From an uncultured Desulfobacter sp. (lineage in GTDB: Bacteria > Desulfobacterota > Desulfobacteria > Desulfobacterales > Desulfobacteraceae): 64,000 bases of DNA. Both the position numbers and the translations under genes were made by a program. The stretch lies in the NCBI RefSeq assembly GCF_963665355.1, contig NZ_OY762229.1, positions 1,426,001-1,490,000 on the forward strand. Direction: 5' to 3'. The first letter of the stretch is position 1. Each line of letters starts with the position of its first letter. Shown one piece after another: positions 1,085 to 46,217 of this stretch. Under the pieces are notes generated by a model. The model saw nothing but the letters and a program-made list of their open reading frames with translations, searched no databases and was not told the origin of the DNA.

Positions 1085-1115
1085 GGTCATATTCGACCTA
1101 AGCTTGAATATGACC
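1085..1115. promoter_or_regulatory. 31-bp dyad operator (UAS) copy 1
   Basis: Arms GGTCATAT and ATATGACC separated by 15 bases; the extended arms GGTCATATTC/GAATATGACC are a perfect 10-bp inverted repeat. The right edge lies 91 bp before the GG of the sigma-54 element at 1204, the spacing seen at the other copies. A T-run follows, so it could also act as terminator for the antiporter gene. It is one of eight related dyads in this window. Confidence 0.7.
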
Positions 1116-1203
1116 CTTTTTATCTGATGGACGGAGTGGGTATGAAACTGTCGTTAAGAGCAATTATTCTAATAAACTCAACACAATGCAGACCGATAGG
1201 ATT

Positions 1204-1220
1204 CTGGCACAAATATTGAA
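1204..1220 (+). promoter_or_regulatory. sigma-54 -24/-12 promoter for the BON gene
   Basis: TGGCACAAATATTGAA fits TGGCAC-N5-TTGC except that the final GC is GA. The GG-N10-GA form recurs at most promoters of this set. Transcription would start near 1231, just before the truncated BON reading frame. Confidence 0.7.
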
Positions 1221-1238
1221 TTATTATAGAGTGAATAG

Positions 1239-1751
1239 TCAAAAGATGACCAACCTGCTGAAAAATCAGACGCATGGCTCATTACCAAAGTAAAAACCAC
1301 ACTTTTATTTCATAGGAACGTCAGCACTACGGCAACTGAGGTTTTCGCAAAAGATGGCACCATCACCTTGCGCGGTGAAGCAGACAATAACGCCCAGAAA
1401 GATTTGACGACCGAATATGCCTTGGATGTGGAAGGCGTTAAAAATGTAAATAATGAAATGACCGTTTCAGAGGCCGGTGAGGCAACATCAAGTGCCCAAA
1501 AGATCGCCGCCAAGACGAATGTGGTGGTTGAATTGATTGACGATACGTCTATTACTGCCCTGGTAAAAACCTCATTGCTTTATCATCGCTCAACCAGTGC
1601 CATCAACACCGAAGTTGAGACAAAAAATGGTGTGGTCACGCTGAAAGGCATAGCCAAGACGTCCGCTGAAAAGGATCTGGCCGGCAGATATGCAAGTGAT
1701 GTTAACGGCGTAAATAAGGTTAACAACATCATCATCGTCATCGTCGAGTAA
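1239..1751 (+). pseudogene. BON-domain periplasmic protein lacking its 5' end
   Basis: BON domains bind phospholipid or envelope surfaces and occur in OsmY-type stress proteins. Two BON repeats are readable in one frame. The first begins near SDAWLITKVKTTLLFHRNVS and contains DGTITLRGEA; the second has TALVKTSLLYHRSTSAI and NGVVTLKGIA. The frame is open back to a TAG at 1236-1238, but there is no ATG, no ribosome site and no signal peptide. The only start the frame offers late is a TTG at 1368 inside the first repeat. The presumed sigma-54 start point lies immediately before it, so the leader and signal sequence appear to have been deleted. It may still be expressed from an unusual codon, but I read it as a decapitated OsmY-like gene. 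Confidence 0.65.
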
Positions 1752-1789
1752 GGGACAAGGAATATCCTATTTTTTGAAGGAGTCCAATC

Positions 1790-1954
1790 ATGTACCGACT
1801 TGTATTGTTGTTTGTAATTACGGGGCTTATCTGTTGGTCAGGCAATATCGGCGCCAAGGAGATAAACCTCGGTGCAGGAGAAATCTACCACCAAGGAGAC
1901 CTCACCGTTACCTGTGGCCAATCATCGACTGATCAACCCCTGATGGTCCTGTAA
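1790..1954 (+). pseudogene. Small secreted Cys-rich protein, 5' half (split by IS)
   Basis: An ATG after a good ribosome site (GAAGGAG) opens a frame with a clear signal peptide (MYRLVLLFVITGLICW...GA) followed by a short mature part containing CGQSS. Codon 51 (CTG, 1940-1942) is the last host codon; after it the frame runs into the IS end and stops at 1954. Removing the IS and one copy of the 9-bp target duplication joins this frame exactly to the 3' half at 3859, giving a protein of about 134 residues. No known family is recognised. Confidence 0.75.
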
Positions 1955-3849
1955 AAAGTCAGAGCCCAAATCAAGCTCCTGTTTTTGAGTTTGAACACTA
2001 TTTTGATCATATGATCAAAACTTGTTAAAAAACAATTTTTATAAGCCAAATTGCTCTTTGACATTCCAAAAAGCAGTGTATTACACCCCGAAAGGGCTCC
2101 CCTATGCCTCCTTTATGCATAGCTAAGCGCCTTCTGGACAATAGTTGCCCTGAAGAGGTTGATTCCTGCTGCTTTTAAGGTTGCCGCGAACCTTACTGCT
2201 TGGAGACCTCGATATTTTAATCGTTTCACCCCGGTTCGTCGATCATATTCGGACATTGTTGCTTCGACTCCGGCTCGCCACCGATATCTATCTTTGAACT
2301 CATCTGTCTGTTCATAAGCTCTTCTTCGGGCGATCCTTGCAGCCTTAGCGGTATATCGACTGTACGCGTACTTTTTCCCCTGTTTTACCGGGCAATCTTC
2401 CAGTTGAGGGCAGCCCATGCAGGTATCAAGGGGAAAACCTTGGGTAATCCGTTCCTTCTTTTTCTTTTTAAAAACCGGGGCATGCCCTTGCGGACATGTT
2501 ATGATCTGCCCATCTGCCGCAAGGTTGAAATCAGTAAGGCTGAGCTTTTCCTTTTTGGTCGTTCCCATGGTGGGCGAAACAAGATTAATTCCATCTGACT
2601 GGGCAATCTGGTGATTCTCATCGCTTCCATAAAGAGAGTCCGCCTGGAGTTCTTTGGGAGAAAGGTTTCTCTGCTTGGCGGCATCAATTGCAGGGATAAG
2701 AGCATTGGCATCACTTGCCGAGGCAGGTTCCACCTCAACATGAGTGATAAGATTCAAGGTTCCGGCCTTCTCATCTTCATCCTCTGTTTCTGTAAAGGTT
2801 TCCATCACCTGAACCTGGTAACCTTGTCCCTTATGTCCGCTGTAGGTCGCATCAGGGTCTGAAGGATTTTGAAGTGAGTCTGAAGGAATCTCTTTTGGAG
2901 CTTTAAGCGCAACCTTCTGGCCACTTTCAGGATCAACTTCCAGATTGCACTGCTCTTTCAAAACCCTTTCAAGCAGCTTGTAGCTGTACATGGATGAAAC
3001 ATCAGAGTCGCTTTTAAATTCCTGGATCAGATGGTAAAGATCCTTGCTGACACTTGCAAGAGTTTTAGCTGAATCAGAGGGTTTTACCATGGAAAAGCAG
3101 GACAATGCCTTTTCCGAAATATACTTCCCGATAATATCGGTGCTGATACCGGAAAAATGGTCAGGGTGCTTGCGTTTCAGGTTAACCAGAAATTTATTGA
3201 TACTCGCTGCAAAGATACTGATTCTTCCCAGCCGTCGCATATTTGACTTAACATGGACCGAATCGATTCTTTGGTTGTCAGAATTGACTTCAAACACTGC
3301 TGCAAGTTTGTCTGTAATAGCATTGAAGAGGGTTTTGTCCAGTTTCTTTTCGATCATGAGTTGACGGAAGGTCCACAGGGTTTTCAAACATAGATATTTG
3401 GCGGCATCCGATTCTTCCGTTAAATTCAAGGCATAGTGCCATTGAATATTGAATGCCAGTTGCGATACGGTTTCTTCGTCAGTAAGATCATGAGCTTGCT
3501 GGAGCAGCAAAACACCGAGCATGGTGAAGAGTTCCTTTGTAGGACGTCCTGCTTCTCTTGAGAAATAGGGTTTGATCAGATTGACCGGTAATGAGCGGAG
3601 GATTTCTTTTTGAAAAAGCCCTGCCCAGGAGTCATCGAGCAATTTCCTGCGCTTCGGGCTTAAAAAGTCCCAAGGATCGAAAAGGTGGAGCTGATTGTGG
3701 TCATTTGTTTTAATCATTTAGTCAACCATAAGTTATTGATAACATAGAGTATGTTATACAAAATAAATATTTTTAATACAAGCTAAAAATCGAATTTTAG
3801 CCAATAATATTAACCTGTTAAATTGATTTTGGACTTTTTACGAGTCCAT
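1943..3849. mobile_element. IS1182-family insertion sequence
   Basis: The element is 1907 bp with one transposase. Its ends are imperfect inverted repeats, ATGGTCCTGTAAAAAGTC on the left and the complement of ATGGACTCGTAAAAAGTC on the right. A 9-bp direct repeat CAACCCCTG flanks it at 1934-1942 and 3850-3858. It lies within the coding sequence of a small Cys-rich exported protein, which it splits in frame. The clean target duplication and intact transposase suggest a recent insertion. Confidence 0.88.
2113..3717 (-). CDS. IS1182-family DDE transposase
   Basis: 534 residues, the usual size for the family. The N-terminal part (about 20-130) carries the domain typical of IS1182/IS5-like enzymes, with the EAGRPTKELFTMLGVLLLQ stretch. 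The C-terminal part (about 280-520) is the DDE nuclease: SDPDATYSGHKGQGYQVQV, ADSLYGSDEN and the late RWRAGVEATMSEYDRRTGVKR segment that supplies the E. A Cys-rich patch (CMGCPQLEDCPVKQ) precedes that segment, as in other members. The frame is intact and the gene fills the element. Confidence 0.92.
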   Translation of the reverse strand: MIKTNDHNQLHLFDPWDFLSPKRRKLLDDSWAGLFQKEILRSLPVNLIKPYFSREAGRPTKELFTMLGVLLLQQAHDLTDEETVSQLAFNIQWHYALNLTEESDAAKYLCLKTLWTFRQLMIEKKLDKTLFNAITDKLAAVFEVNSDNQRIDSVHVKSNMRRLGRISIFAASINKFLVNLKRKHPDHFSGISTDIIGKYISEKALSCFSMVKPSDSAKTLASVSKDLYHLIQEFKSDSDVSSMYSYKLLERVLKEQCNLEVDPESGQKVALKAPKEIPSDSLQNPSDPDATYSGHKGQGYQVQVMETFTETEDEDEKAGTLNLITHVEVEPASASDANALIPAIDAAKQRNLSPKELQADSLYGSDENHQIAQSDGINLVSPTMGTTKKEKLSLTDFNLAADGQIITCPQGHAPVFKKKKKERITQGFPLDTCMGCPQLEDCPVKQGKKYAYSRYTAKAARIARRRAYEQTDEFKDRYRWRAGVEATMSEYDRRTGVKRLKYRGLQAVRFAATLKAAGINLFRATIVQKALSYA

Positions 3850-3858
3850 CAACCCCTG

Positions 3859-4110
3859 GCCCTTAAAGATTGCCAGTACTGGGACGATTTCACCAAAACA
3901 TGTCTGTTTGAAAAAACGACTTATGTGTATAAAAATATCGAGTGCATTGAAGAGTGCCAGCACTGGAATAAATTCAACAGTACCTGCCATTACCGGACTA
4001 GGTGTACGTTTTATCCGTCTCAGAAATCATTTGTGAAGACGACATGCGAAAGGTTTGATGACTTCAAAAAGACCTGCCTGCAAACAAAGGATTTGAAGAT
4101 CGGACGCTGA
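3859..4110 (+). pseudogene. Small secreted Cys-rich protein, 3' half (split by IS)
   Basis: Continues the frame broken at 1942. It encodes 83 residues with three similar units of the form C-x-[HYR]-[WF]-[DN]-x-F-x-x-[TS]-C: CQYWDDFTKTC, CQHWNKFNSTC and CERFDDFKKTC. Together with CGQ in the 5' half this gives a small, disulphide-capable envelope protein with three repeats of about 35 residues. I do not recognise the family. The ATG-like start at 3823 lies within the IS end and has no ribosome site. Confidence 0.7.
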
Positions 4111-4172
4111 GAGAGATGTGCGAATGACTGATTTGCAAAATTATGAACCGTAATGAACTGTAGATCGAAACA

Positions 4173-4204
4173 AGTCATATATGGTCATCTGGTTCTATAT
4201 GACC
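4173..4204. promoter_or_regulatory. 32-bp dyad operator (UAS) copy 2
   Basis: AGTCATAT, 16 bases, ATATGACC, with a third half-like GGTCAT in the spacer. It lies 109 bp before the GG of the sigma-54 element at 4311. It belongs to a stretch of about 165 bp shared with 15.6 kb. Confidence 0.7.
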
Positions 4205-4310
4205 TGTTTTTATTATCATTCTCTTCTCCGGCTCTCCGGCCATGATCCATTGATGTAATTATTCTCTGAAAATTTAACATATTAAGACGAAAAATTAAAA
4301 TTTGTTACGT

Positions 4311-4327
4311 TTGGCCCGAAACTTGAA
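4311..4327 (+). promoter_or_regulatory. sigma-54 promoter for the aconitase remnant/korAB
   Basis: TTGGCCCGAAACTTGAA: GG, ten bases, GA. The match to TGGCAC-N5-TTGC is weaker than at the other sites, but it is identical to the element before the cytochrome at 15.76 kb and lies at the expected distance from a dyad. Confidence 0.6.
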
Positions 4328-4333
4328 GTAGTC

Positions 4334-4538
4334 GTGGACATAATTGGGATAAAAACCAGTGGCGGGGCCGACTGCGTTGTTATTGCCGCCATAACGTCCT
4401 GTACCAACACCTCTAAACCGTTTAGGCTCATCGGGGCCGGCCTGATGCGATATCTTGAGGCACTGGGATTTCATGTGGCCGGGGGTTCTGGTGTACCACC
4501 TGTATCGGTAACATCGGCCCTATAATCATATATTCTGT
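4334..4538 (+). pseudogene. Aconitase remnant
   Basis: Two short pieces of aconitate hydratase are fused. The first has GADCVVIAAITSCTNTSKP, holding the first cluster cysteine of the family (SCTNTS). It jumps directly to YLEALGFHVAG, which in real aconitases precedes the other two cluster cysteines. Those (CTTCIGNIGP) are still there but one base out of frame. The span between the pieces and nearly all the rest of the enzyme is missing. GTG at 4334 is only a formal start. The remnant sits between a sigma-54 promoter and korA, suggesting a former acn-korAB unit. Confidence 0.85.
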
Positions 4539-4624
4539 CTCGGAGCGGATATATGTTTTGTTTGAGGATTATTTACAAATTGAATCCATATTATTTTTAA
4601 AAGGAGTCGTTCACGACCACTGAT

Positions 4625-6355
4625 ATGAATATTGATATGAAAATGGATATGACCATTAAAATTGGCGGGGCAGCCGGCCAGGGGATACAGACGATCGGAA
4701 ATCTTTTGGCCCGGGCATGCCGGGATGCAGGGTTTTACATCATGGCGATCAACGATTTTGAGTCCCGGGTCCGGGGCGGTCACAGTTTTTTTCAGATGCG
4801 CATCAGTGATAAGCCGGTTTATGCACCTCATCACCGGGTGGATCTTTTAATTGCCCTTAATAAAGAGACCTGGGACCTGCATAAGGATCAATTACGGGAC
4901 GATGGGATGGCTATCCTGGAGGTACCGCTTGATTCTCCATCCAAACAGGCGGTTTGCATCGAATTCTCAACCATTGCCAAAGAAGCCGGCAATACGCTTT
5001 ATTCCAATACGGTTGCCGCTGCTGCCGGCCTGTCAATACTGGGGGCATCTTTTGACAGAATTGACGCCCTGCTGTCCAGGCAGTTTAATGGAAAAAAGGA
5101 GGATATTATTGAAAAAAATATCAACGCAGCCCGGCTGGGATGTGATGCGGTCAAGGAGATTCGTTTTCCCCGGCAACCGTTTTTAAGGACATCTGCTCCC
5201 AAAGGCCAAATGATGGCAGGCTCCCGGGCGGTTGCCCTGGGTGCCGTTGCATCAGACTGCCGGATAGCGGCATTTTATCCCATGTCCCCTGCAACCAGTA
5301 TCATGCAGCATCTTAGCGGCTGGACAAACCGCCTTCCCCTTGTGGTGGAACAGGCAGAAGATGAAATTGCGGCCGTTAACATGATTATCGGCGCCTCCTT
5401 TGCCGGTGCGCGGGCCATGACCGCCACCTCGGGCGGTGGATTTTGTCTCATGGCAGAAGGCCTTGGTCTTTCAGCCATTACGGAAACCCCTATTGTCATT
5501 GTCGATGCCCAGCGGCCTGGCCCTGCCACAGGCCTGCCGACCCGCACCAGTCAAGGAGATCTTTTATTTGCCATCCATGCCTCCCAGGATGATTTTCCAC
5601 GGTTTGTCTTTGCACCGGGTAACCCCTGGGAAGCCTTTGAAATCACCCAAAAGGCATTTGCCCTGTCTGAAAAATACCAGGTTCCGGCAATTATTCTTAT
5701 GGATCAATATCTGGCAGACGCCATGTTTTTACTGGAACACTCATTTACTTTTCCCAAAAAGGTTGAACGATTTATTGTTGGGGATAAAGATCTTAAAAAC
5801 CCGAAAAATTACAATCGGTATGCGTTGACATCCTCCGGGATTTCGCCCAGGGCACTGCCATGCACAGGGGATGCCAGAGTCGTGGTATCCAGTGATGAAC
5901 ACAGAGAAGACGGCCATATCACCGAGGATATTGATAACAGAAACGCCATGGTCAACAAGCGTAAATCAAAGCTGCCGGATATGATCAGGGAAATGTCTGC
6001 ACCCCAAGGATTGTTCCCCGACGCAAAAACACTGCTGCTGGGGTGGGGATCAACATCGGGCAGCATTAAAGAATCAGTGGAAGGTCTCCGCAACGAGGGA
6101 ATGGATGTGGGTTGCCTTTTATTTACAGACCTGTGGCCCTTTCCCGCCGCAATTGTCGAATCCCATTTAAAAGGCCAGGTCAAAACTATTATTACGGTGG
6201 AACAAAATTCAAGTGCTCAGTTCGGGCACCTGCTAAAAGAGCAGACCGGGATTTCATACACCCATGCCATACTGAAATATGACGGCAGACCCTTTTACCC
6301 GATTGAAATCATGGATGCTGTTAAAGAAGCGGTTAAAGAAAAGGAGAAACATTGA
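4625..6355 (+). CDS. korA: 2-oxoacid:ferredoxin oxidoreductase, fused gamma-alpha subunit
   Basis: Forms with the next gene a thiamine diphosphate enzyme that oxidatively decarboxylates a 2-oxoacid to its CoA thioester, or carboxylates it in reverse, using ferredoxin. Residues about 8-185 are the gamma domain (GGAAGQGIQTIGNLLARA, SRVRGGHSFFQMR). Residues about 195-440 are the pyrimidine-binding domain (FYPMSPATSIMQHL, VEQAEDEIAAVNM, TATSGGGF, QRPGPATGLPTRTSQGDL). The last about 110 residues are the transketolase C-terminal-like domain. The gamma-alpha order is typical of KorA. Several ATGs lie close together (4625, 4637, 4643), so the exact start is uncertain. The 2-oxoglutarate assignment rests on the fusion and on the neighbouring aconitase remnant. 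Confidence 0.88.
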   Translation: MNIDMKMDMTIKIGGAAGQGIQTIGNLLARACRDAGFYIMAINDFESRVRGGHSFFQMRISDKPVYAPHHRVDLLIALNKETWDLHKDQLRDDGMAILEVPLDSPSKQAVCIEFSTIAKEAGNTLYSNTVAAAAGLSILGASFDRIDALLSRQFNGKKEDIIEKNINAARLGCDAVKEIRFPRQPFLRTSAPKGQMMAGSRAVALGAVASDCRIAAFYPMSPATSIMQHLSGWTNRLPLVVEQAEDEIAAVNMIIGASFAGARAMTATSGGGFCLMAEGLGLSAITETPIVIVDAQRPGPATGLPTRTSQGDLLFAIHASQDDFPRFVFAPGNPWEAFEITQKAFALSEKYQVPAIILMDQYLADAMFLLEHSFTFPKKVERFIVGDKDLKNPKNYNRYALTSSGISPRALPCTGDARVVVSSDEHREDGHITEDIDNRNAMVNKRKSKLPDMIREMSAPQGLFPDAKTLLLGWGSTSGSIKESVEGLRNEGMDVGCLLFTDLWPFPAAIVESHLKGQVKTIITVEQNSSAQFGHLLKEQTGISYTHAILKYDGRPFYPIEIMDAVKEAVKEKEKH

Positions 6356-6356
6356 T

Positions 6357-7205
6357 ATGGTTACCCTAAAGGATTTTAATTCAGACTATCAAAATCAGTG
6401 GTGTCCGGGATGTGGAAATTTCGGGATTTTGGAAGCCATGAAAGATGCCCTGACCAAACAGGGTATCCCGCCGGAAAAAATTTTGCTCATTTCCGGCATC
6501 GGCCAGGCAGCCAAAACCCCCCATTTTTTAAACTGCAATATGTTTCACAGTCTTCATGGGAGGGCACTGCCTCTGGCTTTGGGAGCAAAATTGGCCAACC
6601 ATGATCTGAAAATAATAGTGAATTCAGGGGATGGCGATTGCTATGGCGAAGGAGGCAACCATTTCATGCACGCCATCAGGCGGAACACCGATCTGACGCT
6701 GCTTGTGCACAACAATCAGGTATACGGCCTGACAAAGGGTCAGGCATCCCCGACCTCAGGGCTTGGCATGACAACCGCTCTTCAACCCGATGGGGTCATA
6801 TCCGAACCCTTCAACGGACCTGCCGTGGCTTTGAGTCTGGGTGCAGGATTTGTTGCCCGGGGATTTTCCGGCAACAAAGACCATTTAAGCGACCTCATAC
6901 AAAAAGCCATGTCCCATAAAGGGTTGAGCCTCATTGATATCATGCAGCCCTGTGTGTCGTTCAACAAAATCAACACCTTTGAATGGTATAAGAAAAGAGT
7001 GTATGAAGCGGATAATCCTGAACCTGACAATTTTACACAGGCCATGAAGCTGGCCATGGAATGGGGGGATGCCATCCCCATCGGAATCTTTTATCAAACA
7101 AAAAAGCCGGATTTTACATCCCGGATAAAAGGACTTGAAAACGGCCCCCTTATTTTTCGGAACTATGATCCGGAAAAAGCCAGGGCAATATTACAGGATT
7201 CATAA
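6357..7205 (+). CDS. korB: 2-oxoacid:ferredoxin oxidoreductase, beta subunit
   Basis: Catalytic thiamine-diphosphate subunit, 282 residues. It begins one base after the korA stop with AAGGAG before the ATG. The N-terminus has WCPGCGNFGILEAMKDAL; the paired cysteines match the KorB type. The cofactor motif GDGDCYGEGGNHFMHAIRRN is followed by NNQVYGLTKGQASPTS, both diagnostic. No separate ferredoxin subunit is encoded here, so electrons go to soluble ferredoxin. A longer upstream frame exists but lies inside korA. Confidence 0.92.
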   Translation: MVTLKDFNSDYQNQWCPGCGNFGILEAMKDALTKQGIPPEKILLISGIGQAAKTPHFLNCNMFHSLHGRALPLALGAKLANHDLKIIVNSGDGDCYGEGGNHFMHAIRRNTDLTLLVHNNQVYGLTKGQASPTSGLGMTTALQPDGVISEPFNGPAVALSLGAGFVARGFSGNKDHLSDLIQKAMSHKGLSLIDIMQPCVSFNKINTFEWYKKRVYEADNPEPDNFTQAMKLAMEWGDAIPIGIFYQTKKPDFTSRIKGLENGPLIFRNYDPEKARAILQDS

Positions 7206-7217
7206 AGGAGATATAAA

Positions 7218-7592: not shown

Positions 7593-7821
7593 CAGAATTG
7601 AGCGATTTTCTGTTATCCTGTTTGCGGTATGGACATCGGTGCGGCATGGCTTTGGAGCCAAAGGGTGGGGGCAGGGGAAAGAAAACGCGGAATTGGCAAA
7701 CATGCGCCGCCGCTTGTTGAGCTATGCCACCATGCGCAACTTCAAACAGAAGCTGTTTTTTGCTTTTGTGTGCAACTAATTGGCGAGACAACAAACATAA
7801 AATCAAAAAATGGAGGGAACG
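7593..7821. other. Non-coding gap
   Basis: No homologous gene or signal seen. It has open frames but no credible protein, and lies between the end of the korAB unit and the next small genes. Confidence 0.5.
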
Positions 7822-9622: not shown

Positions 9623-9730
9623 TATATTTTAGCCATTAATCCTTTTATTGCGGCTGATATTTTAAGTCAGACCCCTGCACTTGAAAGGCAGGCAGAATTA
9701 AATTTACAGGGAAAAAGGAGGAAACAGATT

Positions 9731-15632: not shown

Positions 15633-15664
15633 GGTCATATATGGTCATATGACCCAATATGACC
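15633..15664. promoter_or_regulatory. 32-bp dyad operator (UAS) copy 3
   Basis: Perfect arms GGTCATAT and ATATGACC with 16 bases between; the spacer itself carries GGTCATATGACC, a further palindrome. It is the best-conserved copy and lies 101 bp before the GG of the sigma-54 element at 15763. Confidence 0.75.
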
Positions 15665-15762: not shown

Positions 15763-15779
15763 TTGGCCCGAAACTTGAG
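15763..15779 (+). promoter_or_regulatory. sigma-54 promoter for the tetrahaem cytochrome
   Basis: TTGGCCCGAAACTTGA with GG-N10-GA spacing. The leader from here to the ATG at 15928 is about 140 bases and holds no convincing gene. Confidence 0.6.
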
Positions 15780-15927: not shown

Positions 15928-17916
15928 ATGCAAAAGAAGCTGATAGCAGTTATTTTTTTGGTAACGGGGCTGAGCGTACTGATGTTTTTCGGTATGGGGG
16001 GGAATCTGACCTCACAGGCTGCTGACAATTCCACAGCAAAGGTACAAAAAGCGGACATGACCCAGGAAGCTGCGGCATTGCGCACAATTAAAGCGGTTCC
16101 AGGCACCCCGGATGGAGTGCTGCTGATGCAGGTGCAGGCGCTTTTCGGCAAACTTCCCTCGACCATGCCCGGCAGTGAGAAAGACACTCCCTCCATGATT
16201 GCATTGGGGAAAAAACTCTATTTTGAGAAAAACATTTCGATTAACAAAACCCAATCCTGCAACTCCTGCCATCCTATTGACAACAAAGGTGCAGGCGCTG
16301 ACAATCTCAAGACAGGCAAAGGCGCGGAAGGAAAATTCGGCGACCGCAACGATCCACCAACCATGAATGCCGGTTTTCAGATTGCTCAGTTCTGGGACGG
16401 CCGCGCGGCCACTCTGGAAAATCAGGCCCAAGGTCCCCCACTCAATCCTATTGAAATGGGTATGCCCAATGCCGAAGCTGTGGCCGAACGGCTGAAAAGC
16501 ATAAAAAATTACCCCTCTGATTTCAAAAAAGCTTTTCCTGGCGAGAAAGACCCCGTGACTTTCGACAACTTTTCCAAGGCGGTTGCCGCCTTTGAACGAA
16601 CACTGATTACCCGTGGCAGATTGGATCGTTTCATGGACGGGGACAAACAGGCCCTCACCGGGCAGGAAATGGAAGGGATGCGCACCTTTATCAATGTCGG
16701 CTGTGTGCAGTGCCACAGCGGCCCCAACCTGGGTGGGATGACCTTCCAGAAAATGGGCGTGTTCCATAAATACACCAACGCCGAGGATACTGGACGATTT
16801 AAGGTCACCAACCTGGAAAGTGATAAATATGTCTTCAAGGTTCCCATGTTGCGCAATGTTACCCTTACCGCCCCCTATTTCCATGACGGCGAGGCAGGCA
16901 GTCTGGCAGAGGCAGTGGATCAGATGGGATACCTGCAGTTGGATAAGAAACTGAATGACGCAGAAATCAACAATACTCTCAGATTTTTGACCACCCTGGC
17001 CGATGCGGAGCGTACCACCGCGCCGCCAATAAAGGTAAAAGCATCTTCTACTGCCTGGGCAGCACCGGTAATGAAGGATCTTCCCTTGGGAGACGACGGT
17101 GATCTCATCCGTTACGGTGCATTGCTTTTGACCGATACATATTCGCAGCTCGGCGCTGGCGTAAAGGATGAAAAAATGCGTTTTTCGGGAAATACCCTGA
17201 ACTGCACGAGTTGCCACCAGGATAACGGCACCAAGCAGTTCGGCCTCCCCTGGATGGGGGTTAGCCAGATGTACCCTCAATACCGAGGCCGCGAAGACAA
17301 GGTGGCGGGGCTTGAGGAGCGGATTAACGGTTGTTTCGAGCGCAGCATGAACGGCAAGGCGATAGCGGTCGACAGCAGGGAGATGAAGGCAATGGTCGCC
17401 TATATAAACTGGTTGTCAAAAGATCTGTCCAAGGATGTTTATGGCCTGGCAACACCCAAATTCGAAGGTCCAAACCGCAAGGCCGATGTGAAAAAAGGCG
17501 AAGAGGTGTACAATCGGTTCTGCATGTCATGCCATGGCGAAAACGGGAACGGTTATCAGTCAATGTCGGCCGGAGATTCGGGCAGCTATGTCGCTCCGGC
17601 GTTGTGGGGAGAGAACAGCTATAACAACGGCGCGGGAATGAACCGGTTGCTGACCAACGCCGCGTTTGTTCACAGCAACATGCCACTGGGAACGGTGTGG
17701 AACCATCCGGCAATCATCAATGAAGACACCTACGATGTCGCCGCCTATCTCAGTTCCCAGGAGCGTCCGCAGATGGGCGGACTGGAGAAGGACTATCCGA
17801 AACTGGAGAAAAAAGCGCTGGACTGCCCGTATCCACCCTATGCTGATGATTTTTCACAGCAACAGCATCAGTACGGCCCATTTCAGCCAATAAAAAAGGC
17901 GCAGAAAAATAAATAA
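15928..17916 (+). CDS. Tetrahaem cytochrome c: peroxidase/MauG-like domain fused to TsdA-like dihaem domain
   Basis: Exported periplasmic cytochrome of 662 residues with a signal peptide (LIAVIFLVTGLSVLMFFGMG). Four CxxCH haem sites are visible: CNSCH at about 111, CVQCH at 259, CTSCH at 426 and CMSCH at 532. Residues about 55-355 match the dihaem peroxidase/MauG family (AQFWDGRAATLENQA, FERTLITRGRLDRFM, VPMLRNVTLTAPYFHDGE). Residues about 385-640 resemble thiosulfate dehydrogenase TsdA/SoxA-type dihaem proteins (YRGREDKVAGLEERINGCFE, EMKAMVAYINWLSKD). Peroxide reduction could thus take electrons from, or share a chain with, the second unit. Substrates of both halves are inferred. It is driven by a sigma-54 promoter with a dyad upstream. 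Confidence 0.85.
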   Translation: MQKKLIAVIFLVTGLSVLMFFGMGGNLTSQAADNSTAKVQKADMTQEAAALRTIKAVPGTPDGVLLMQVQALFGKLPSTMPGSEKDTPSMIALGKKLYFEKNISINKTQSCNSCHPIDNKGAGADNLKTGKGAEGKFGDRNDPPTMNAGFQIAQFWDGRAATLENQAQGPPLNPIEMGMPNAEAVAERLKSIKNYPSDFKKAFPGEKDPVTFDNFSKAVAAFERTLITRGRLDRFMDGDKQALTGQEMEGMRTFINVGCVQCHSGPNLGGMTFQKMGVFHKYTNAEDTGRFKVTNLESDKYVFKVPMLRNVTLTAPYFHDGEAGSLAEAVDQMGYLQLDKKLNDAEINNTLRFLTTLADAERTTAPPIKVKASSTAWAAPVMKDLPLGDDGDLIRYGALLLTDTYSQLGAGVKDEKMRFSGNTLNCTSCHQDNGTKQFGLPWMGVSQMYPQYRGREDKVAGLEERINGCFERSMNGKAIAVDSREMKAMVAYINWLSKDLSKDVYGLATPKFEGPNRKADVKKGEEVYNRFCMSCHGENGNGYQSMSAGDSGSYVAPALWGENSYNNGAGMNRLLTNAAFVHSNMPLGTVWNHPAIINEDTYDVAAYLSSQERPQMGGLEKDYPKLEKKALDCPYPPYADDFSQQQHQYGPFQPIKKAQKNK

Positions 17917-26284: not shown

Positions 26285-26839
26285 TCACAAATCATGGCCT
26301 GGGTTGGTCAGCATAATTGATGCGACACTGGCTGCATTCTGGAAGGCCAGGCGAACCACTTTTTTCGGGTCCATAACGCCGGCGGCAATCAGGTCCTCAT
26401 AAACATGGGTTCTGGCGTTGTAACCAAAGGCTCCCTGCCCCGCTTTGACTTTATCGATCACAACGGCACCCTCAACACCGGCATTATCGACAATTTTTCG
26501 CAGGGGGGCTTCAATGGCTCTGGCACCTGCCCCGTCAACGATGGTGCAGGTGCCTTTATCAATAATGATGCTTTTTGCCTGCCCCAGATCCTGCAGGGTG
26601 ATATTTTCAAGTTTGATTCCCATATCTTCGGAAATAACCTGGCCGCCGGTTAAAACGGCAATGTCCTCCAGCATCTCTTTTTTTCTCTCGCCAAAGCCGG
26701 GCATCTTGACCGCCGCGACATCCAGCACCAGAAAAATATCGGTCTTTCTTGGAGGACCGCTTTGAACCCGGGAGGCACTCATCATTTTTTTGCCGTAATA
26801 TCCGGGAGGGTACACTGTTTCTTCAGACGTGCTTTTCAT
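26285..26839 (-). pseudogene. Mini-GroEL: in-frame chimera of GroEL pieces
   Basis: 184 codons, open, with a good ribosome site (GAGGAGATGATG). After about 40 residues of foreign sequence ([16 protein letters not shown]) it enters GroEL at [19 protein letters not shown], runs through the apical domain to VDGAG, then jumps in frame to [20 protein letters not shown] and continues to the C-terminal equatorial part ([13 protein letters not shown]). About half the chaperonin is gone, including the N-terminal ATP-binding half, so it cannot fold proteins as GroEL does. It is first in the glycan operon and mirrors the intact groEL of the other arm. Likely a decaying copy; an adapter role cannot be excluded. 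Confidence 0.75.
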
Positions 26840-26879: not shown

Positions 26880-26897
26880 GTTCACATTGCGTGCCAA
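26880..26897 (-). promoter_or_regulatory. sigma-54 promoter of the left-arm glycan operon
   Basis: On the minus strand, TTGGCACGCAATGTGAA: TGGCAC is perfect, GG-N10-GA spacing, although the -12 part reads GTGA. It lies 41 bp before the mini-GroEL ATG and 101 bp from the dyad at 26996. Confidence 0.6.
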
Positions 26898-26995: not shown

Positions 26996-27027
26996 GATCA
27001 TATGTACCCAAACGGTCATATGTGACC
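26996..27027. promoter_or_regulatory. 32-bp dyad operator (UAS) copy 4
   Basis: GATCATAT, 16 bases, ATGTGACC: one mismatch in each arm. It lies 101 bp upstream of the minus-strand sigma-54 element. Its right half plus spacer (CAAACGGTCATATGTGACC) is identical to the orphan copy at 39796. Confidence 0.65.
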
Positions 27028-28589: not shown

Positions 28590-28607
28590 GGCAATCATTG
28601 TGCCAGG
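28590..28607 (-). promoter_or_regulatory. sigma-54 promoter, duplicated copy
   Basis: Minus strand CTGGCACAATGATTGCCC, a full match to TGGCAC-N5-TTGC. It would transcribe leftwards through the open fragment at 28.3-28.5 kb into the GGDEF gene, placing that gene in the regulon. The dyad at 28706 is 102 bp upstream. Confidence 0.7.
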
Positions 28608-28705: not shown

Positions 28706-28737
28706 GGTCGTATTTGTCCAATGGGTCATATGGCACC
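28706..28737. promoter_or_regulatory. 32-bp dyad operator (UAS) copy 5
   Basis: GGTCGTAT, 16 bases, ATGGCACC. Each arm departs from the consensus at one to three positions. It differs from the 46186 copy at two positions, as part of the block duplication. Confidence 0.6.
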
Positions 28738-30534: not shown

Positions 30535-30566
30535 GGTCAAATAGGACTCTTTGGACGCATATGACC
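30535..30566. promoter_or_regulatory. 32-bp dyad operator (UAS) copy 6
   Basis: GGTCAAAT, 16 bases, ATATGACC: the right arm is perfect and the left has one change. It lies 101 bp before the GG of the groESL sigma-54 element. The 175 bp between the IS and this site hold nothing I recognise. Confidence 0.65.
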
Positions 30567-30663: not shown

Positions 30664-30681
30664 CCTGGCACACAAATTGAT
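30664..30681 (+). promoter_or_regulatory. sigma-54 promoter of groESL
   Basis: CCTGGCACACAAATTGAT: perfect TGGCAC, five bases, TTGA. No CIRCE element (TTAGCACTC-N9-GAGTGCTAA) is seen before groES, so the usual HrcA control is absent here. Confidence 0.75.
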
Positions 30682-30811: not shown

Positions 30812-32721
<1,910 letters not shown>

Positions 32722-33805: not shown

Positions 33806-33822
33806 CCCATGAAAGGAGCCAA

Positions 33823-39537: not shown

Positions 39538-39589
39538 GAATTGATCATTGAGACGGCACTTAACCACCCGAAGAGACCTTGGCTGATAT

Positions 39590-39795
39590 CTGTTAAAACC
39601 ATGGTGATTTCCACGTTTTGAACAATATCAACCTTGATGTGACAAAGGGAGAGCGCATCGTTGTATGCGGCCCCTCGGGATCGGGTAAATCCACTTTAAT
39701 CCGGTGCATCAACCGCCTTGAAGAACATCAGAAGGGGCAGATTATTGTCGATGGCATTGAACTGACCAAAGATTTAAAAATGCAACATGAGCCAA
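39590..39795 (+). pseudogene. Amino-acid ABC transporter ATPase, N-terminal fragment
   Basis: VLNNINLDVTKGERIVVCG followed by PSGSGKSTLIRCINRLEEHQ and IIVDGIELT is the start of a GlnQ/HisP-type ATPase with an intact Walker A. The rest of the gene is absent. The break falls just before an orphan dyad. Confidence 0.85.
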
Positions 39796-39827
39796 AATCA
39801 TATGCACTCAAACGGTCATATGTGACC
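39796..39827. promoter_or_regulatory. 32-bp dyad operator (UAS) copy 7, orphan
   Basis: AATCATAT, 16 bases, ATGTGACC. Very like the 26996 copy, but no GG-N10-G[CA] element lies about 100 bp away on either side and no gene starts nearby. Together with the ZraP-like gene next to it, whose fragment also lies near the 26996 copy, it marks a rearranged duplicate of that junction. Confidence 0.6.
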
Positions 39828-39912
39828 TCTTTGGTGTGGCAGGACGAATCAGGGGCCGAACAAAAACGCCGCGCCAACAGGTGGCGGGCTGCAACGGTAT
39901 GGTCAATTCATC

Positions 39913-40410
39913 CTAATGATTATCGGCGGCCAGATTGATTTTTTTCATCCGGATGAGATGTTCGATCATCTTTTGCTCAAACTTCGCCTTGGCCTCGGAA
40001 ATACTCTTTTGAATACCTAGGGCCACAGCGGTATCCGGAGATTGTTTGACAAGCTCGGCTTTCAGGTAAAGCTCTTTTTCATAAATGGTCTGTCTGAGGG
40101 TCTCTGTGGCCTTTATAAACGCTTCCTGCTCATTATTCAGCTTTTTTACGGTAATATCGCTTAACTCTCTGTAATATCCCGGGTATTTGCTGGCCCCGCC
40201 GGACATCCCCGTTTCCCGAAAACCGTAACGCATCATCCCCTGTCCATATTGTATGATGTCATCGGGATTCTGGCCCTCGTTACTGAGGGAACCATATCCG
40301 TCCCGGTGAATGCCTGCGTTCTCATCCAGACCAAAGGCATTCAAAGGCGACATAAAGATTAAGCCGATAAATAGGGCCACAATTACTCTTTTAATACAAT
40401 GACATCTCAT
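39913..40410 (-). CDS. ZraP/Spy-like periplasmic protein
   Basis: 165 residues. Signal peptide (IKRVIVALFIGLIFMSPLNAFG), then a Gly/Tyr-rich stretch (YGQGMMRYGFRETGMSGGA) and a long helical part (LNNEQEAFIKATETLRQTIY ... EAKAKFEQKMIEHLIRMKK) of the type found in periplasmic metal- or stress-sensing chaperones. ATG at 40410 is preferred because the signal peptide starts there. It is last in the unit that begins with the radical SAM gene. Function is inferred from architecture; the zinc ligands of ZraP are not obvious. Confidence 0.75.
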   Translation of the reverse strand: MRCHCIKRVIVALFIGLIFMSPLNAFGLDENAGIHRDGYGSLSNEGQNPDDIIQYGQGMMRYGFRETGMSGGASKYPGYYRELSDITVKKLNNEQEAFIKATETLRQTIYEKELYLKAELVKQSPDTAVALGIQKSISEAKAKFEQKMIEHLIRMKKINLAADNH

Positions 40411-40483
40411 TTTAAATTTCCTTAAATTTGTCCATAAATATGGATCTTTAATGTGTTGAAAAAACCTGAACCGTTTGCTTTGC

Positions 40484-43177: not shown

Positions 43178-43533
43178 TATTGATTTTCATTCATGACATC
43201 CCGGCCAAATTCCTTGACCGCATGGATCCATCCCTGTTTGAAAGACTGGTATTCTTCAAAATCCCAATCAGGGGCTTCGGTTTTATTTACTGCTGACCAG
43301 AGTTCTTTAAATCTGTATCTGAAATCATTCTTGAAATAGTCATATTGGTAGTCATCCTGCCGATTCATGTTTTCTTCTGCAGCATCAAAATCCGGCGCAT
43401 TGACCGCCACCCTGAGGGCATCATCATTTGCCAGGTTTTTGATCCAGTTTTCCCCTTCTTCTTTGCCAAATTCGATCCAGTCGTCTTTTCTGTCATTGGT
43501 CAACCGGTGCATTTTTTTCTTTGTTTTTTTCAT
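43177..43533 (-). CDS. Hypothetical acidic protein, 118 residues
   Basis: Rich in Asp, Glu, Trp, Phe and Tyr, no signal peptide and no membrane helix. The end (YQSFKQGWIHAVKEFG) and the middle (YDYFKNDFRYRFKELWSAV) suggest a small helical protein. Two ATGs follow GGAGG directly (43536 and 43533); the second has better spacing. Its stop overlaps the start of the acyl-CoA synthetase gene, so the two are probably made together. I do not recognise the family. Confidence 0.65.
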   Translation of the reverse strand: MKKTKKKMHRLTNDRKDDWIEFGKEEGENWIKNLANDDALRVAVNAPDFDAAEENMNRQDDYQYDYFKNDFRYRFKELWSAVNKTEAPDWDFEEYQSFKQGWIHAVKEFGRDVMNENQ

Positions 43534-43596
43534 CATGTCCTCCCATGGTTTTCCTGTCCGTGTCACACCATTGCCGCCGCGCAACAATGGATGAGT

Positions 43597-43890
43597 TCAC
43601 ATCATGGCTCTGAGTTCTTCCCCCCGGACGGTTTCCTGGATGGCGAGAAGTGCGGCCAGCTTATCCAGCAGCGCCCTTTTATCTGAAAGGATCTTGTGCA
43701 CCCTCAGATGAGCTTCTTCCATCATCAAAGAGACCGCTTCATCCATCCGGGCCGCAGTTTCTTCACTGTAATTTTTCTGGAAAGAATAGCCATGGGGCAG
43801 AAACACGGGGGTTCGGGAACAATAGCATGACCGGACTCATGAAAGGCCACAATCTCTTTTTCTCTGGCATTCATCACCCGGTTCTTTTTT
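43597..43890 (-). pseudogene. FtsH protease remnant
   Basis: Two pieces of the M41 protease domain. KNRVMNAREKEIVAFHESGH holds the zinc-binding HExGH, then about 100 residues are missing and, in another frame, NYSEETAARMDEAVSLMMEE followed by AHLRVHKILSDKRALLDKLA forms the C-terminal helices. The AAA+ part is gone. The remnant follows a tract of 18 C just after grpE. It shows that this unit once encoded a membrane protease as well as a nucleotide exchange factor. Confidence 0.85.
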
Positions 43891-43892
43891 TG

Positions 43893-43910
43893 CCCCCCCC
43901 CCCCCCCCCC
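43893..43910. repeat. Homopolymer of 18 C
   Basis: Longest homopolymer seen in the window, at the border between the grpE 3' flank and the ftsH remnant. Such tracts slip during replication and sequencing, so its exact length is doubtful. Confidence 0.9.
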
Positions 43911-43947
43911 GAAAAAATCATCCCGGGTGCAGCGGCTGGGGAGAATT

Positions 43948-44493
43948 CTATCCTGCCGCCACCAGTACCTGGGCCGGGCGCAGCAGTTTGCCGTGATATA
44001 AATATCCTTTTCTTTCAACACTTACCACGGTATGGGCAATTGCTGCAGGATTCCGGACCACTCCGAGGGCGTCATGGATCTTCGGGTCAAACACGGCGCC
44101 TAAAGCCTCAATTGGCTGGACCTCATATTTGATGAAAAACTGATCCAGAATGCCTTTGAGCCCTTGGATTCCCTGGAAGATATTGCGACTGTCATCTTCC
44201 CCGGAGATATGGTTCAAGGCAAGATCCAGCCCGTCAGCCAGCTTGATCACATCTTTGAGCAGTTCTGTTCTTTGCCCCTCAATTTCAAGAACAGAGGCTC
44301 GTGCCAGACGTTTTTTCGTGTTTTCCAGATCAGCGAACAGATAATAATATTTCTCCTCCCAGTCAGATGCCGTATCTGAGGTTTGCGCCTCCGGCCCCCT
44401 CAGCCCTGAAAATTCATCTTCCAGGCCGTAGCCGGGTTTGGAATAAGAATCTTTCAGTACAGCATAGATTTTTTTTTGAAGTTTATTGACCAT
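43948..44493 (-). CDS. grpE: Nucleotide exchange factor GrpE
   Basis: Partner of DnaK that releases ADP. 181 residues: N-terminal variable helix, then the long coiled dimer helix (WEEKYYYLFADLENTKKRLA), LLKDVIKLADGLDLAL, and the beta-wing domain (GAVFDPKIHDALGVV, GYLYHGKLLRPAQVLVA), all family blocks in order. The start lies 11 bp inside the radical SAM gene, so expression is coupled to it. dnaK and dnaJ are absent nearby, so this is likely an extra grpE serving a stress regulon. Confidence 0.93.
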   Translation of the reverse strand: MVNKLQKKIYAVLKDSYSKPGYGLEDEFSGLRGPEAQTSDTASDWEEKYYYLFADLENTKKRLARASVLEIEGQRTELLKDVIKLADGLDLALNHISGEDDSRNIFQGIQGLKGILDQFFIKYEVQPIEALGAVFDPKIHDALGVVRNPAAIAHTVVSVERKGYLYHGKLLRPAQVLVAAG

Positions 44494-45982
44494 CTTTACT
44501 CCTTATATAGATATAACGTTCACAGATTTTCCGGTAATGATACCCGTATATGGATAAGGTTACGGCCACAGAAATCAGCCGGGGTTTTCTAAGGAGGGTC
44601 CACAGAATCAGCTGCCAATAGCAAAACCGCTCTTTTCCCAGGATACCCAGCCTGAGGCTTGCCCTGAAAAAAGAGAGAACCCGCTGGAAATCCAGGGGCT
44701 GAAACACCTCCGGGGGCGTGAGGGCACGCAACTGGGTCCTGACCCGCCGGTAATAGTTTGCCGGGGAATAAATCTGTTTCATGATCCGTTGATACCCCTT
44801 TGACAGCGCTTCCATTCCCATCCGGGGCAGAATATTGGTTGTGCCATCCACATTATCGCCGGTAAATGGCCTGACCACCCGGCTCTGGCGCTGAAGCCTG
44901 TCAAACAGCCGGGTTCCGGGAGGGGCCTGAAGCATCCCCACCATGGCCATGACGATTCCACTGTTCTGGATAAAATCGATCTGGCGTTGAAAAATGGAGG
45001 GCGGGTCACTGTCAAATCCCACGATAAACCCGCCCATCACCTGCAGGCCGCTGCGGTGGATGATGGCCACGTTTTCAAGCAGATCTCTATTTTTATTCTG
45101 GATTTTATGGCATTCGCTCAAGGCGGTTTCATCCGGGGACTCGATGCCGATGAAGACCGAGTCAAATCCCGCCTTTACCATCAGGGAAAGCAGGTCCGGA
45201 TCATCGGCCAGGTTAATGGAAGATTCCGTGAAGAAGACACATCCCTTTTTATCCCTGCGCCATTGGATCAGGGCAGGAAGCAGATGGTCTTTCAGAAATC
45301 GCTTGTTGCCGATAAAATTATCATCCACAAAAAATATGCTGCTCCGCCAGCCCAGATCATAGATACGGTCCAGTTCCCCAATGATCTGGCCGGGGGTTTT
45401 CAGCCGGGGACTGTGTCCGAACAATGCGGTGACATTGCAAAAATCGCAGTTAAAGGGGCATCCCCTGGAAAACTGGATGCTCAAGGCGGCATACCGTTTT
45501 ATCTTCAGCAGATGCCACAGGGGAACCGGCGTCTCACTAAGATCACTGAACCCTACCGCCCGATAGATCTTTTTTGCCTGCCCTTTTTCCAGGTCTGATA
45601 AAAACAGGGGCAGTGTCAGCTCGGCTTCATCCAGCACCAGGTGATCCGCAGTCCCGAATTGCTCCGGTTCAGCCGTAAAAAGAGGACCGCCGCAGACAAG
45701 GGTCACCGGCAAGGCTTTGCACCGGTCAATAATCCGGCAGGCAGATTCGCGCTGAACCGTCATTCCCCCCATAAAGACCATGTCCGCCCATAAAAGGTCC
45801 GTGTCGCTCAGACGTTCCACATTGGTATCCACAAGTTTCTTGGACCATTTTTCGGGCAGCAGCGCAGCCACTGTCAGAAGGCCCAATGGGGGAAAAGCGG
45901 CTTTTTTGCCGATGAAACTGACCGCATAATTAAAGGACCAGAAAGTGTCAGGAAATTCGGGATAAATCAGTAAAATATTCAT
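44483..45982 (-). CDS. B12-binding radical SAM protein (DUF4070 type)
   Basis: 500 residues. Residues about 1-150 are the cobalamin-binding Rossmann domain (MNILLIYPEFPDTFW, LLWADMVFMGGMTVQRES). The radical SAM core follows with the cluster motif CPFNCDFCNV, then FVDDNFIGNK and VFIGIESPDETALSECHKIQ. The C-terminal part resembles the domain shared with hopanoid and other B12-dependent methylases. Likely a C-methyltransferase acting on a lipid or natural product. ATG at 45982, eight bases after GGAGG; a longer frame runs into the promoter and is rejected. First gene of a sigma-54 unit with grpE. Confidence 0.88.
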   Translation of the reverse strand: MNILLIYPEFPDTFWSFNYAVSFIGKKAAFPPLGLLTVAALLPEKWSKKLVDTNVERLSDTDLLWADMVFMGGMTVQRESACRIIDRCKALPVTLVCGGPLFTAEPEQFGTADHLVLDEAELTLPLFLSDLEKGQAKKIYRAVGFSDLSETPVPLWHLLKIKRYAALSIQFSRGCPFNCDFCNVTALFGHSPRLKTPGQIIGELDRIYDLGWRSSIFFVDDNFIGNKRFLKDHLLPALIQWRRDKKGCVFFTESSINLADDPDLLSLMVKAGFDSVFIGIESPDETALSECHKIQNKNRDLLENVAIIHRSGLQVMGGFIVGFDSDPPSIFQRQIDFIQNSGIVMAMVGMLQAPPGTRLFDRLQRQSRVVRPFTGDNVDGTTNILPRMGMEALSKGYQRIMKQIYSPANYYRRVRTQLRALTPPEVFQPLDFQRVLSFFRASLRLGILGKERFCYWQLILWTLLRKPRLISVAVTLSIYGYHYRKICERYIYIRSKDGQ

Positions 45983-46065
45983 TTGGGGCCTCCTTTCGAA
46001 ATTAAAATTTTTATTTTCTTTTTCCATTGCCCGTTTTCCGGAGGCGAGATTGTTGTAACCTGATA

Positions 46066-46083
46066 AGGCAATCATTGTGCCAG
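46066..46083 (-). promoter_or_regulatory. sigma-54 promoter of the radical SAM-grpE unit
   Basis: Minus strand CCTGGCACAATGATTGCC: TGGCAC-N5-TTGC exactly, the best promoter of the set. About 84 bp before the radical SAM ATG; 105 bp from the dyad at 46186. Confidence 0.85.
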
Positions 46084-46185
46084 GGGACGGGTCGGGGAAG
46101 CTATTCTTTGATGATGCCGGATTTTAAGGGGAAACACCCAAAGGAGGGGGGGGCGTATTTAAGGAAGCCGGATGGCCTCAAAGGC

Positions 46186-46217
46186 GGTCGTATTTATCCA
46201 ATGGGTCATATGGTACC
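46186..46217. promoter_or_regulatory. 32-bp dyad operator (UAS) copy 8
   Basis: GGTCGTAT, 16 bases, ATGGTACC. It lies between the 3' end of the activator gene and the radical SAM promoter, the expected place for an enhancer. The central GGGTCATATGG is shared with the 28706 copy. Confidence 0.65.

Follow-up and report, generated by a model that had tools for sequence, protein, structure and literature searches.

The window analysed here, a stretch of 64,000 nt (C2:1426001-1490000) from the 5.64-Mb genome of an uncultured Desulfobacter sp., carries eight dyad sequences of 31 or 32 bp, most of them facing a sigma-54 promoter at a nearly constant distance, and a gene for a candidate sigma-54 activator with a dyad at its 3' side. 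The best reading of these data, with a probability of roughly 0.8, is that this activator family is predicted to drive a regulon resembling a general stress response through a rigid enhancer. The sites, their spacing, their linkage to the activator gene and a correlation between an activator residue and a dyad base are directly visible, both here and in relatives of two types, referred to below as Desulfobacter-type and Geobacter-type.

Architecture of the dyads and their promoters

All eight dyads claimed in the preliminary description of the window were found (Table 1). The exact form GGTCATAT-N14-18-ATATGACC occurs twice, at 1085 and 15633, versus zero occurrences in 100 dinucleotide shuffles, and the remaining six dyads are variants of it. 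A 32-bp sequence model gave at least 17.5 bits for seven of the eight; the 31-bp dyad at 1085 is a partial match with 9.3 bits. The description of the element as a 31-32-bp dyad holds but overlooked its internal structure, since the aligned sites read GGTCATATATGACC-N3/4-GGTCATATATGACC, i.e. two tandem 14-bp palindromes. Their centres are 18 bp apart in the 32-bp dyads (N4) and 17 bp apart in the 31-bp form (N3). When the window was scanned for the 14-mer only, allowing up to three mismatches, 11 of the 13 matches fell inside dyads, and the mean for shuffled sequence was 2.2 matches.

Both sides of each dyad were scored for a -24/-12 element. A score of 9.2 or more is reached by 1% of 4,000 random positions (35-bp slot, one strand), and the seven promoters of the window score 11.0-14.2, while the dyad at 39796 has no such element on either side. 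The distances of 91, 109, 101, 101, 102, 101 and 105 bp reported before are right, a one-base counting convention aside; Table 1 gives the bases between dyad edge and GG. Over 15 sites of this genome the -24 GG/-12 elements score 9.4-14.2. In 58 distinct promoters of relatives the GG and the -12 G are invariant, though the scoring nearly requires both. A GA instead of GC at -12, proposed as a signature of the group, turned out to be common and not diagnostic. Among the 58 distinct Desulfobacter-type promoters the base after the -12 G is A in 30, C in 25 and G in 3, compared with 20 GA and 31 GC at TGGCAC-N5-TTGM sites genome-wide (p = 0.12); in Geobacter-type promoters that base is C in 45 of 52.

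Concentration of the sites in a 158-kb island

A loose dyad pattern (up to three mismatches) matched 40 places in the genome versus 17 for the reversed pattern, and the five places that have two mismatches or fewer all fall between 1367085 and 1525452. Together with the 31-bp site 1085, a matrix derived from 12 sites yields 16 sites in this 158-kb interval, the eight of the window and eight outside it (genome positions 1367085, 1386557, 1387635, 1396747, 1422757, 1515438, 1522590 and 1525421). A promoter is present at 90-108 bp in 15 of the 16. Two of these dyads, 1422757 and 1522590, are weak (scores 9.6 and 11.2), and a place at 1380424 with a score of 8.4 and no promoter was left out of the count. 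At the same threshold 27 control stretches (540 kb) contained two sites, one of them with a promoter (3004823, weak, 101 bp), and five column-permuted matrices gave 30 hits over 824 kb, none with a promoter at 88-110 bp.

The preliminary description had considered that the dyads might occur randomly over the genome without nearby -24/-12 elements. When this was checked on the sample the proposed association survived, because of the contrast between 15 of 16 sites and one in 540 kb and because the same distance recurs in other genomes. Its term local regulon applies to the concentration in 158 kb seen here, but not strictly and not as a general property. A strictly local regulon is ruled out by 3004823, which lies outside the island with a promoter at the right distance, and two Geobacter-type genomes have about 30 scattered sites. 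The regulon is strongly concentrated here, with a likely handful of further sites elsewhere. The promoter of 1422757, inside the island, is CCGGCACGGAACTTGAT at 100 bp with a score of 9.4 (a rival sigma-54-like hit at 71 bp scores 9.8); that of 3004823, about 1.5 Mb away, is CGGGTACGGAACTTGAT at 101 bp with a score of 6.3-7.3. Both dyads are weak and their promoters resemble each other. Two other places outside the island, 2192870 and 4199739, lack a good promoter in the range of 88-110 bp, the latter reaching 8.0 at 90 bp under a laxer score. A search of the genome with the sequence model returned the 12 training sites with at least 17.5 bits each and no other place above 14.4 bits among the 150 of 1,958 candidates that were scored. 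Because of this sampling, and because it missed 1427085 (1085 in the window), 1386557, 1522590, 1422757 and 3004823, the search cannot prove absence.

Many of the sites are copies of one another. In a BLAST comparison of 15 promoter blocks (1422757 left out) four families with matches of about 120-270 bp were found: A (1367085, 1387635, 1430173, 1441633), B (1386557, 1396747), C (1454706, 1472186, 1522590) and D (1452996, 1515438, 1525421, plus 1465796 as a dyad-only piece). The blocks at 1427085 and 1456535 are unduplicated. Since most sites are members of duplicated blocks, the number of independent promoters is about seven and not 15, 1422757 included.

The dyad-promoter unit in relatives

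Desulfobacter-type relatives were collected by a search of genome contigs with the activator, of which the best 80 of 561 loci were used. Together with 40 further stretches of relatives these make up 120 loci (some genomes are in both sets; identical sites were removed), mostly Desulfobacteria by title with exceptions such as L048 and L053. They contain 117 dyad hits, including five overlapping pairs, and the distinct dyads comprise 34 of 31 bp and 43 of 32 bp. The 400 bp flanking the dyads on both sides gave 118 sigma-54-like hits; the 100-109 bp bin holds 61 of them, the 90-99 bp bin 10 and every other ten-base bin at most six. Some of the remaining hits can be read as coding-sequence matches at the activator 3' end, judging from repeated CGGGCACGC hits. 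With this genome included, 93 dyad-promoter pairs were obtained in the range of 85-119 bp; the distance is 98-104 bp in 78 pairs, of which 44 have spacers less than 60% identical to one another. Measured from the dyad centre to the GG, the distance is 116.8 bp (standard deviation 1.5) for 32-bp dyads and 116.9 bp (standard deviation 1.2) for 31-bp dyads, for gaps of 95-106 bp.

The Geobacter-type dyad is a CGTC/TGTC variant, CGTCATATATGRCA-GTTA-TGTCAAATATGACG, found in a set of 44 loci (L068, L070-L112; mostly 51-61% identity) that are by title mostly Geobacter and Desulfuromonas kin; this spread beyond the group had been overlooked. Because the seeds of the first matrix had been filtered on distance, a rescan was made without a distance filter. 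It gave 64 dyads in 29 of the 44 loci, with 51 of 65 sigma-54 hits at 90-99 bp, and five column-permuted matrices gave 0, 1, 0, 0 and 1 dyads. A model of 38 dyads matched 18 of 20 genomes at E<=0.05, with 2-17 matches per genome in sixteen and 34 and 31, over many contigs, in two; some of these matches are one place counted on both strands. An out-of-sample set of 40 stretches from three genomes (20, 16 and 4) was chosen by the sequence model alone. It held 47 dyads, 44 of them with a promoter at 92-108 bp, and 42 of 46 pairs fall at 95-100 bp, 41 pairs having dyads absent from the model. The Psychromonas and Pedobacter genomes gave no model match at E<=0.05; the Psychromonas locus L091 has one weak dyad-promoter pair at 95 bp. 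Directly after the dyad the Desulfobacter type shows a T-tract and the Geobacter type a conserved G. A search for a third half-site behind the Geobacter-type dyad showed only this G, conserved in 44 of 48, and some weaker columns of T/C.

A further candidate element of the unit, overlooked when it was described as dyad plus promoter, resembles a binding site of integration host factor (IHF), for which an excerpt of PMC7962754 gives the consensus WATCARNNNNTTR. With at most one mismatch and in the same orientation, an IHF-like site lies 30-36 bp upstream of the promoter element (about 33 bp from -24) in 25 of the 41 non-redundant spacers of the Desulfobacter type and in 38 of the 48 of the Geobacter type, compared with 0.46 and 0.30 in base shuffles. 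In the out-of-sample pairs such a site is found 28-38 bp upstream in 34 of 46. The one good example in the window, with one mismatch and about 33 bp upstream, belongs to the groESL promoter at 30665, and the genome encodes six full-length HU/IHF-family proteins.

The candidate activator and its pairing with the dyad

The gene product has a sigma-54 AAA+ domain (PF00158, E=4.9e-73), shared by all 36 aligned members, with a GAFTGA loop and the Walker A sequence GETGTGKE in its translation. The C-terminal helix-turn-helix PF02954 is above the cut-off and present in 35 of the 36. The sensor varies, being Response_reg in 13 of the 36 aligned relatives and a PAS family in others, so the alignment of relatives shows conserved AAA+ and helix-turn-helix parts with exchange of PAS and response-regulator receiver domains. 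Named equivalogs of enhancer-binding proteins (EBPs), including NifA, NorR, FhlA, NtrC, PspF and ZraR, were rejected, as the score is below the cut-off in all NCBIfam models listed (25 of 30 matching models; NorR 376.1 versus 476, NifA 382.3 versus 528.85).

The preliminary description placed the activator correctly, with a sigma-54 regulon around it, but overlooked a second copy at C2:1522692-1524197, which is 90% identical and 49 kb away. This copy follows a transglutaminase-like gene behind dyad 1525421, a position that suggests positive feedback on the activator. The segment 28590-29150 is a degenerate copy of the module, with activator C-terminus, dyad, promoter and the start of the radical SAM leader, and adjoins a GGDEF gene.

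Linkage of dyad and activator is seen at many loci. The interval from -40 to +800 bp relative to the activator 3' end contains a dyad in 42 of the 72 loci with enough sequence, namely 25 of 32 at 60% activator identity or more and 17 of 40 at 50-60%; on the 5' side a dyad is found in 5 of 80. Among 86 family genomes at least 30 have a full-length activator, 34 have dyads and 20 have both (Fisher p = 2e-4). Dyads thus occur in 20 of the 30 genomes where the activator is full-length versus 14 of the 56 others, among the matches listed and with up to 18 activator candidates scored per genome. The recognition helix also covaries with the site. For this comparison 60 of the 80 loci were examined with a matrix that gave no weight to the outer bases; the counts come from the 40 loci with a dyad, the other 20 having none at the threshold. 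Where R precedes the residues STL, the outer base is G in 41 of 44 positions; where P or A stands there instead, it is a non-G base (C/T) in 36 of 36. Locus L067 (63% identity) has both P and C.

Genes behind the dyads

The downstream genes in the window are listed in Table 1. Their products and those of the genes behind the other dyads fit a general stress regulon in part and support the claim that the putative regulon has several stress-type targets. Elsewhere in the island the dyads precede genes for glycan phosphorylase, phosphoketolase, a P-type ATPase, YtxH, rhodanese, trehalose/glycogen enzymes, a cytidylate-kinase-like protein with GroEL, and transglutaminase, operon limits being left aside. 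HrcA/CIRCE control of groESL was rejected, as the CIRCE operator has no match in the window with up to three mismatches.

Targets in relatives were classified by Pfam on mechanically called open reading frames (ORFs) behind the dyad-promoter cassette. One set of 125 proteins took in every first ORF (71) and 54 of the 100 later ones, and its best 25 of 92 families include ABM (19), DUF4070 (11), BON (7), Band_7 (5), FtsH (3) and desulfoferrodoxin N (3). Another 76 proteins (48 first and 28 second ORFs, 17 third ones left out) gave BON (6), ice-binding (3), CsbD (2) and DJ-1 (1) among the best 25 of 43 families. In 86 proteins CsbD (6), Response_reg (4), BON (2), Cu/Zn superoxide dismutase (SOD; 1) and DUF3417 (1) were among the best 25 of 53. 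The commonest first gene behind the dyads of relatives encodes an ABM-domain protein of about 110-120 residues (L038, L039, L062, L213 and others), and in this genome the radical SAM-grpE pair occupies its place.

Several local details may be added. The longest ORF of the radical SAM gene starts at 46075, inside the promoter, and 46027 is the first start past it. The short ORF 4334-4525, which separates the POR gene from the promoter of dyad 4173, is a probable gene remnant and presumably has an aconitase-like motif. The mini-GroEL joins stretches of about 268-337 and 444-515 of the GroEL profile, and a common N-terminus groups it with L023:4532-5281, a cytidylate-kinase-like gene that follows a different dyad. 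A transposase gene (2113-3717) lies between the sites at 1085 and 4173, and the orphan dyad at 39796 is contained in the ABC-transporter ATPase fragment 39618-39938.

Table 1. Dyads, promoters and genes of the window (window positions; promoter distances in bases between dyad edge and GG).
Feature	Position	Strand	Basis
31-bp dyad with central spacer of 3 bp, preceding BON gene	1085..1115	+	sequence pattern
-24/-12 element CTGGCACAAATATTGAA, 90 bp from dyad	1204..1220	+	
BON-domain protein, OsmY-like, under equivalog cut-off	1368..1751	+	Pfam, NCBIfam
Dyad, promoter block family A	4173..4204	+	pattern, matrix, BLAST
-24/-12 element TTGGCCCGAAACTTGAA, 108 bp from dyad	4311..4327	+	
2-Oxoacid:ferredoxin oxidoreductase alpha-type protein, POR domains	4625..6355	+	Pfam
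Dyad, promoter block family A	15633..15664	+	pattern, matrix, BLAST
-24/-12 element TTGGCCCGAAACTTGAG, 100 bp from dyad	15763..15779	+	
Di-haem peroxidase (CCP_MauG) and cytochrome c domain protein	15928..17916	+	Pfam
Mini-GroEL, two separate GroEL stretches; glycosyltransferase genes next	26285..26839	-	Pfam, NCBIfam
-24/-12 element TTGGCACGCAATGTGAA, 100 bp from dyad	26881..26897	-	
Dyad, promoter block family D	26996..27027	-	pattern, matrix, BLAST
-24/-12 element CTGGCACAATGATTGCC, 101 bp from dyad	28590..28606	-	
Dyad in degenerate duplicate of activator-dyad-promoter module, family C	28706..28737	-	BLAST
C-terminal remnant of activator copy, AAA lid and HTH_8, 97% identical over 126 aa	28806..29150	-	
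Dyad upstream of groESL	30535..30566	+	pattern, matrix
-24/-12 element CTGGCACACAAATTGAT, 100 bp from dyad	30665..30681	+	
groES (30812-31105) and groEL (31141-32721)	30812..32721	+	Pfam
Orphan dyad, family D fragment, inside ABC ATPase fragment, no promoter	39796..39827	not assigned	
GrpE	43948..44493	-	Pfam
B12-binding radical SAM protein with DUF4070	44483..46027	-	Pfam
-24/-12 element CTGGCACAATGATTGCC, 104 bp from dyad	46067..46083	-	
Dyad 3' of activator gene, family C	46186..46217	-	pattern, matrix, BLAST
Candidate activator, PAS_4, sigma-54 AAA+ (GAFTGA), AAA lid and HTH_8	46286..47788	-	Pfam, translation

Possible mechanism and alternative explanations

Binding, bending, the signal and the physiological role are what we infer from these sequences, and the following scheme can be considered. 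Each dyad would be the upstream activating sequence of the activator family encoded here at 46286-47788. One HTH_8 dimer would occupy each 14-bp palindrome and, because the palindromes are in tandem, the pair would load two dimers side by side. The DNA between site and promoter would be bent, in the majority of the relatives' promoters at the IHF-like site about 33 bp upstream of -24, and this bend could bring the AAA+ ring to the RNA polymerase-sigma-54 complex sitting at -24/-12. ATP hydrolysis would then open the promoter, as is established for this activator class. The length of the loop would be near-constant and the sensor lineage-dependent (PAS or receiver), with output domains and cis geometry fixed. 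Because many of the predicted targets are protective (chaperonins, GrpE, FtsH, BON, CsbD, peroxidase, SOD, desulfoferrodoxin and glycogen/trehalose enzymes), the system would most likely be a general stress or survival switch.

Several points weigh against this scheme. In 30 of 72 loci the 800 bp that follow the activator on its 3' side contain no dyad, and the matrices used for the linkage counts were partly trained on the same sites. Dyads without a full-length activator occur in 14 genomes; an activator trace is found in six of these (partial relatives in G005, G009, G022 and G068, a remnant near the dyad in G029, locus L219, and a contig-end piece beside the dyad in G069), which leaves eight. 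The residue-base correlation could be mostly one early evolutionary change. In this genome an IHF-like site with at most one mismatch is present in 4 of 14 promoters, and in 1 of 7 in the window. The weights for sigma-54 scoring were taken from a general consensus, and slightly better sigma-54-like hits exist for 1367085 at 127 bp and, on the opposite side of the dyad, for 1387635 at 123 bp. Spacing had been a filter in the choice of seed sites for the first Geobacter-type matrix, a bias that the out-of-sample set corrects. Finally, Pfam leaves many of the target genes unmatched, and neither ABM nor radical SAM/DUF4070, the targets linked most often, belongs to the classic stress genes.

The last point leads to the reading that the dyad is indeed the enhancer of the activator family but that the regulon is metabolic or redox-related (electron transfer, carbon storage, anaerobic metabolism) instead of a stress regulon. 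It would account for ABM (19 of 125) and radical SAM/DUF4070 (11 of 125) as the commonest downstream families listed and for the POR, phosphoketolase and glycogen/trehalose genes in this genome. We consider it unlikely, given that BON and CsbD recur in several loci, that FtsH, SOD, desulfoferrodoxin and DJ-1 are present, and that GroESL and GrpE are encoded behind dyads of this genome. One could also suppose that another regulator binds the dyad and a different activator serves the promoters, the linkage reflecting a shared island. There are many sigma-54 activators per genome (14 to 108 first-look candidates, up to 18 of which were scored), and among the 30 genomes that encode the complete activator 10 gave no dyad at E<=0.05. 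Such a division of roles is very improbable in view of the dyads 3' of the activator in many assemblies of two classes and of the outer base that tracks the recognition-helix residue.

The constant spacing might have been inherited through recent duplication of promoter blocks and not selected. Families A-D of this genome are such duplicated blocks, but spacers less than 60% identical still hold 98-104 bp in 44 pairs and the Geobacter type holds 95-100 bp, which makes inheritance a very improbable cause. An origin of the dyads as inverted repeats arisen by chance, or as a mobile repeat, is hardly conceivable. The orphan at 39796 without promoter and the location of most sites of this genome in duplicated blocks would fit a mobile repeat, but none of 100 shuffles reaches the counts and the promoter distance is fixed across many genomes, including the 44 of 47 out-of-sample dyads. 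The activator-enhancer scheme with a stress-like regulon is the best reading. Its widest form is tentative, at somewhat less than even odds: Desulfobacteria and Desulfuromonadia would run a general stress response via sigma-54 and one activator family with exchangeable sensors, acting through an enhancer of a single loop length (tandem sites, IHF bend, promoter), and one lineage would have gathered nearly all its strong sites in a 158-kb island.

Comparison with known systems

The RpoS, SigB and EcfG general stress regulons use a dedicated sigma factor and have targets such as BON/OsmY, CsbD and glycogen/trehalose genes. The target types thus overlap with those found here, but in the present system sigma-54 plus an activator would take the place of the dedicated sigma factor. 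With activators of the NtrC, NorR, NifA and FhlA type the candidate shares the AAA+ domain with GAFTGA and the C-terminal HTH_8, the NCBIfam hits covering the central domain. Sigma-54 enhancers are taught as distance-flexible, and more than 100 natural promoters held within a few bp form a natural experiment from which one could learn why a constant loop length would be kept. This family also provides a candidate general stress system, with a motif predicting targets genome by genome, for bacteria that are important in sulfur and iron cycling.

The following comparisons refer to excerpts of the cited sources. An NtrC enhancer can act from up to 15 kb (PMC4641369), a tolerance of distance that contrasts with the fixed geometry here. 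The closest described case found is orp of Desulfovibrio vulgaris with the EBP DVU2106, where, as here, a sigma-54 promoter has an upstream EBP site with IHF between them; the IHF sites are at -42 and -79 in orp1 and at -43 in orp2 (PMC3897727). It differs in that it comprises two operons whose EBP sites lie at unequal distances, -131 and -88, and no fixed geometry over multiple operons is described in that excerpt (PMC3897727). The function of DVU2106 is listed as cell division (PMC4641369). The EBP regulons of D. vulgaris (Kazakov 2015; PMC4641369) are similar in that EBP genes often lie beside their own target promoters, PAS sensors are common in one-component EBPs and motifs were derived by comparative genomics. 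They differ in size, mostly 1-4 operons with a maximum of 12, and in their variable distances, four promoters lying more than 300 bp from the EBP site (PMC4641369). Several of these EBPs are labelled stress response, and none is described as the present system in the excerpted text (PMC4641369). Nla28 of Myxococcus, an EBP controlling a starvation network (PMC9765219), is comparable by this description, the likeness being one of role and not drawn from sequence.

The exact 14-mers have no mention in the open-access literature searched, and the leading matches to half-site or 14-mer strings look unrelated by title and the start of the abstract. Among partial texts of open-access literature on Desulfovibrio, Geobacter or Desulfuromonas sigma-54 or stress regulons, nothing is recognisable as the present system. 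The parts, namely EBP, IHF and sigma-54, are known; what differs is the fixed geometry over more than 100 promoters and a stress-leaning regulon in two groups.

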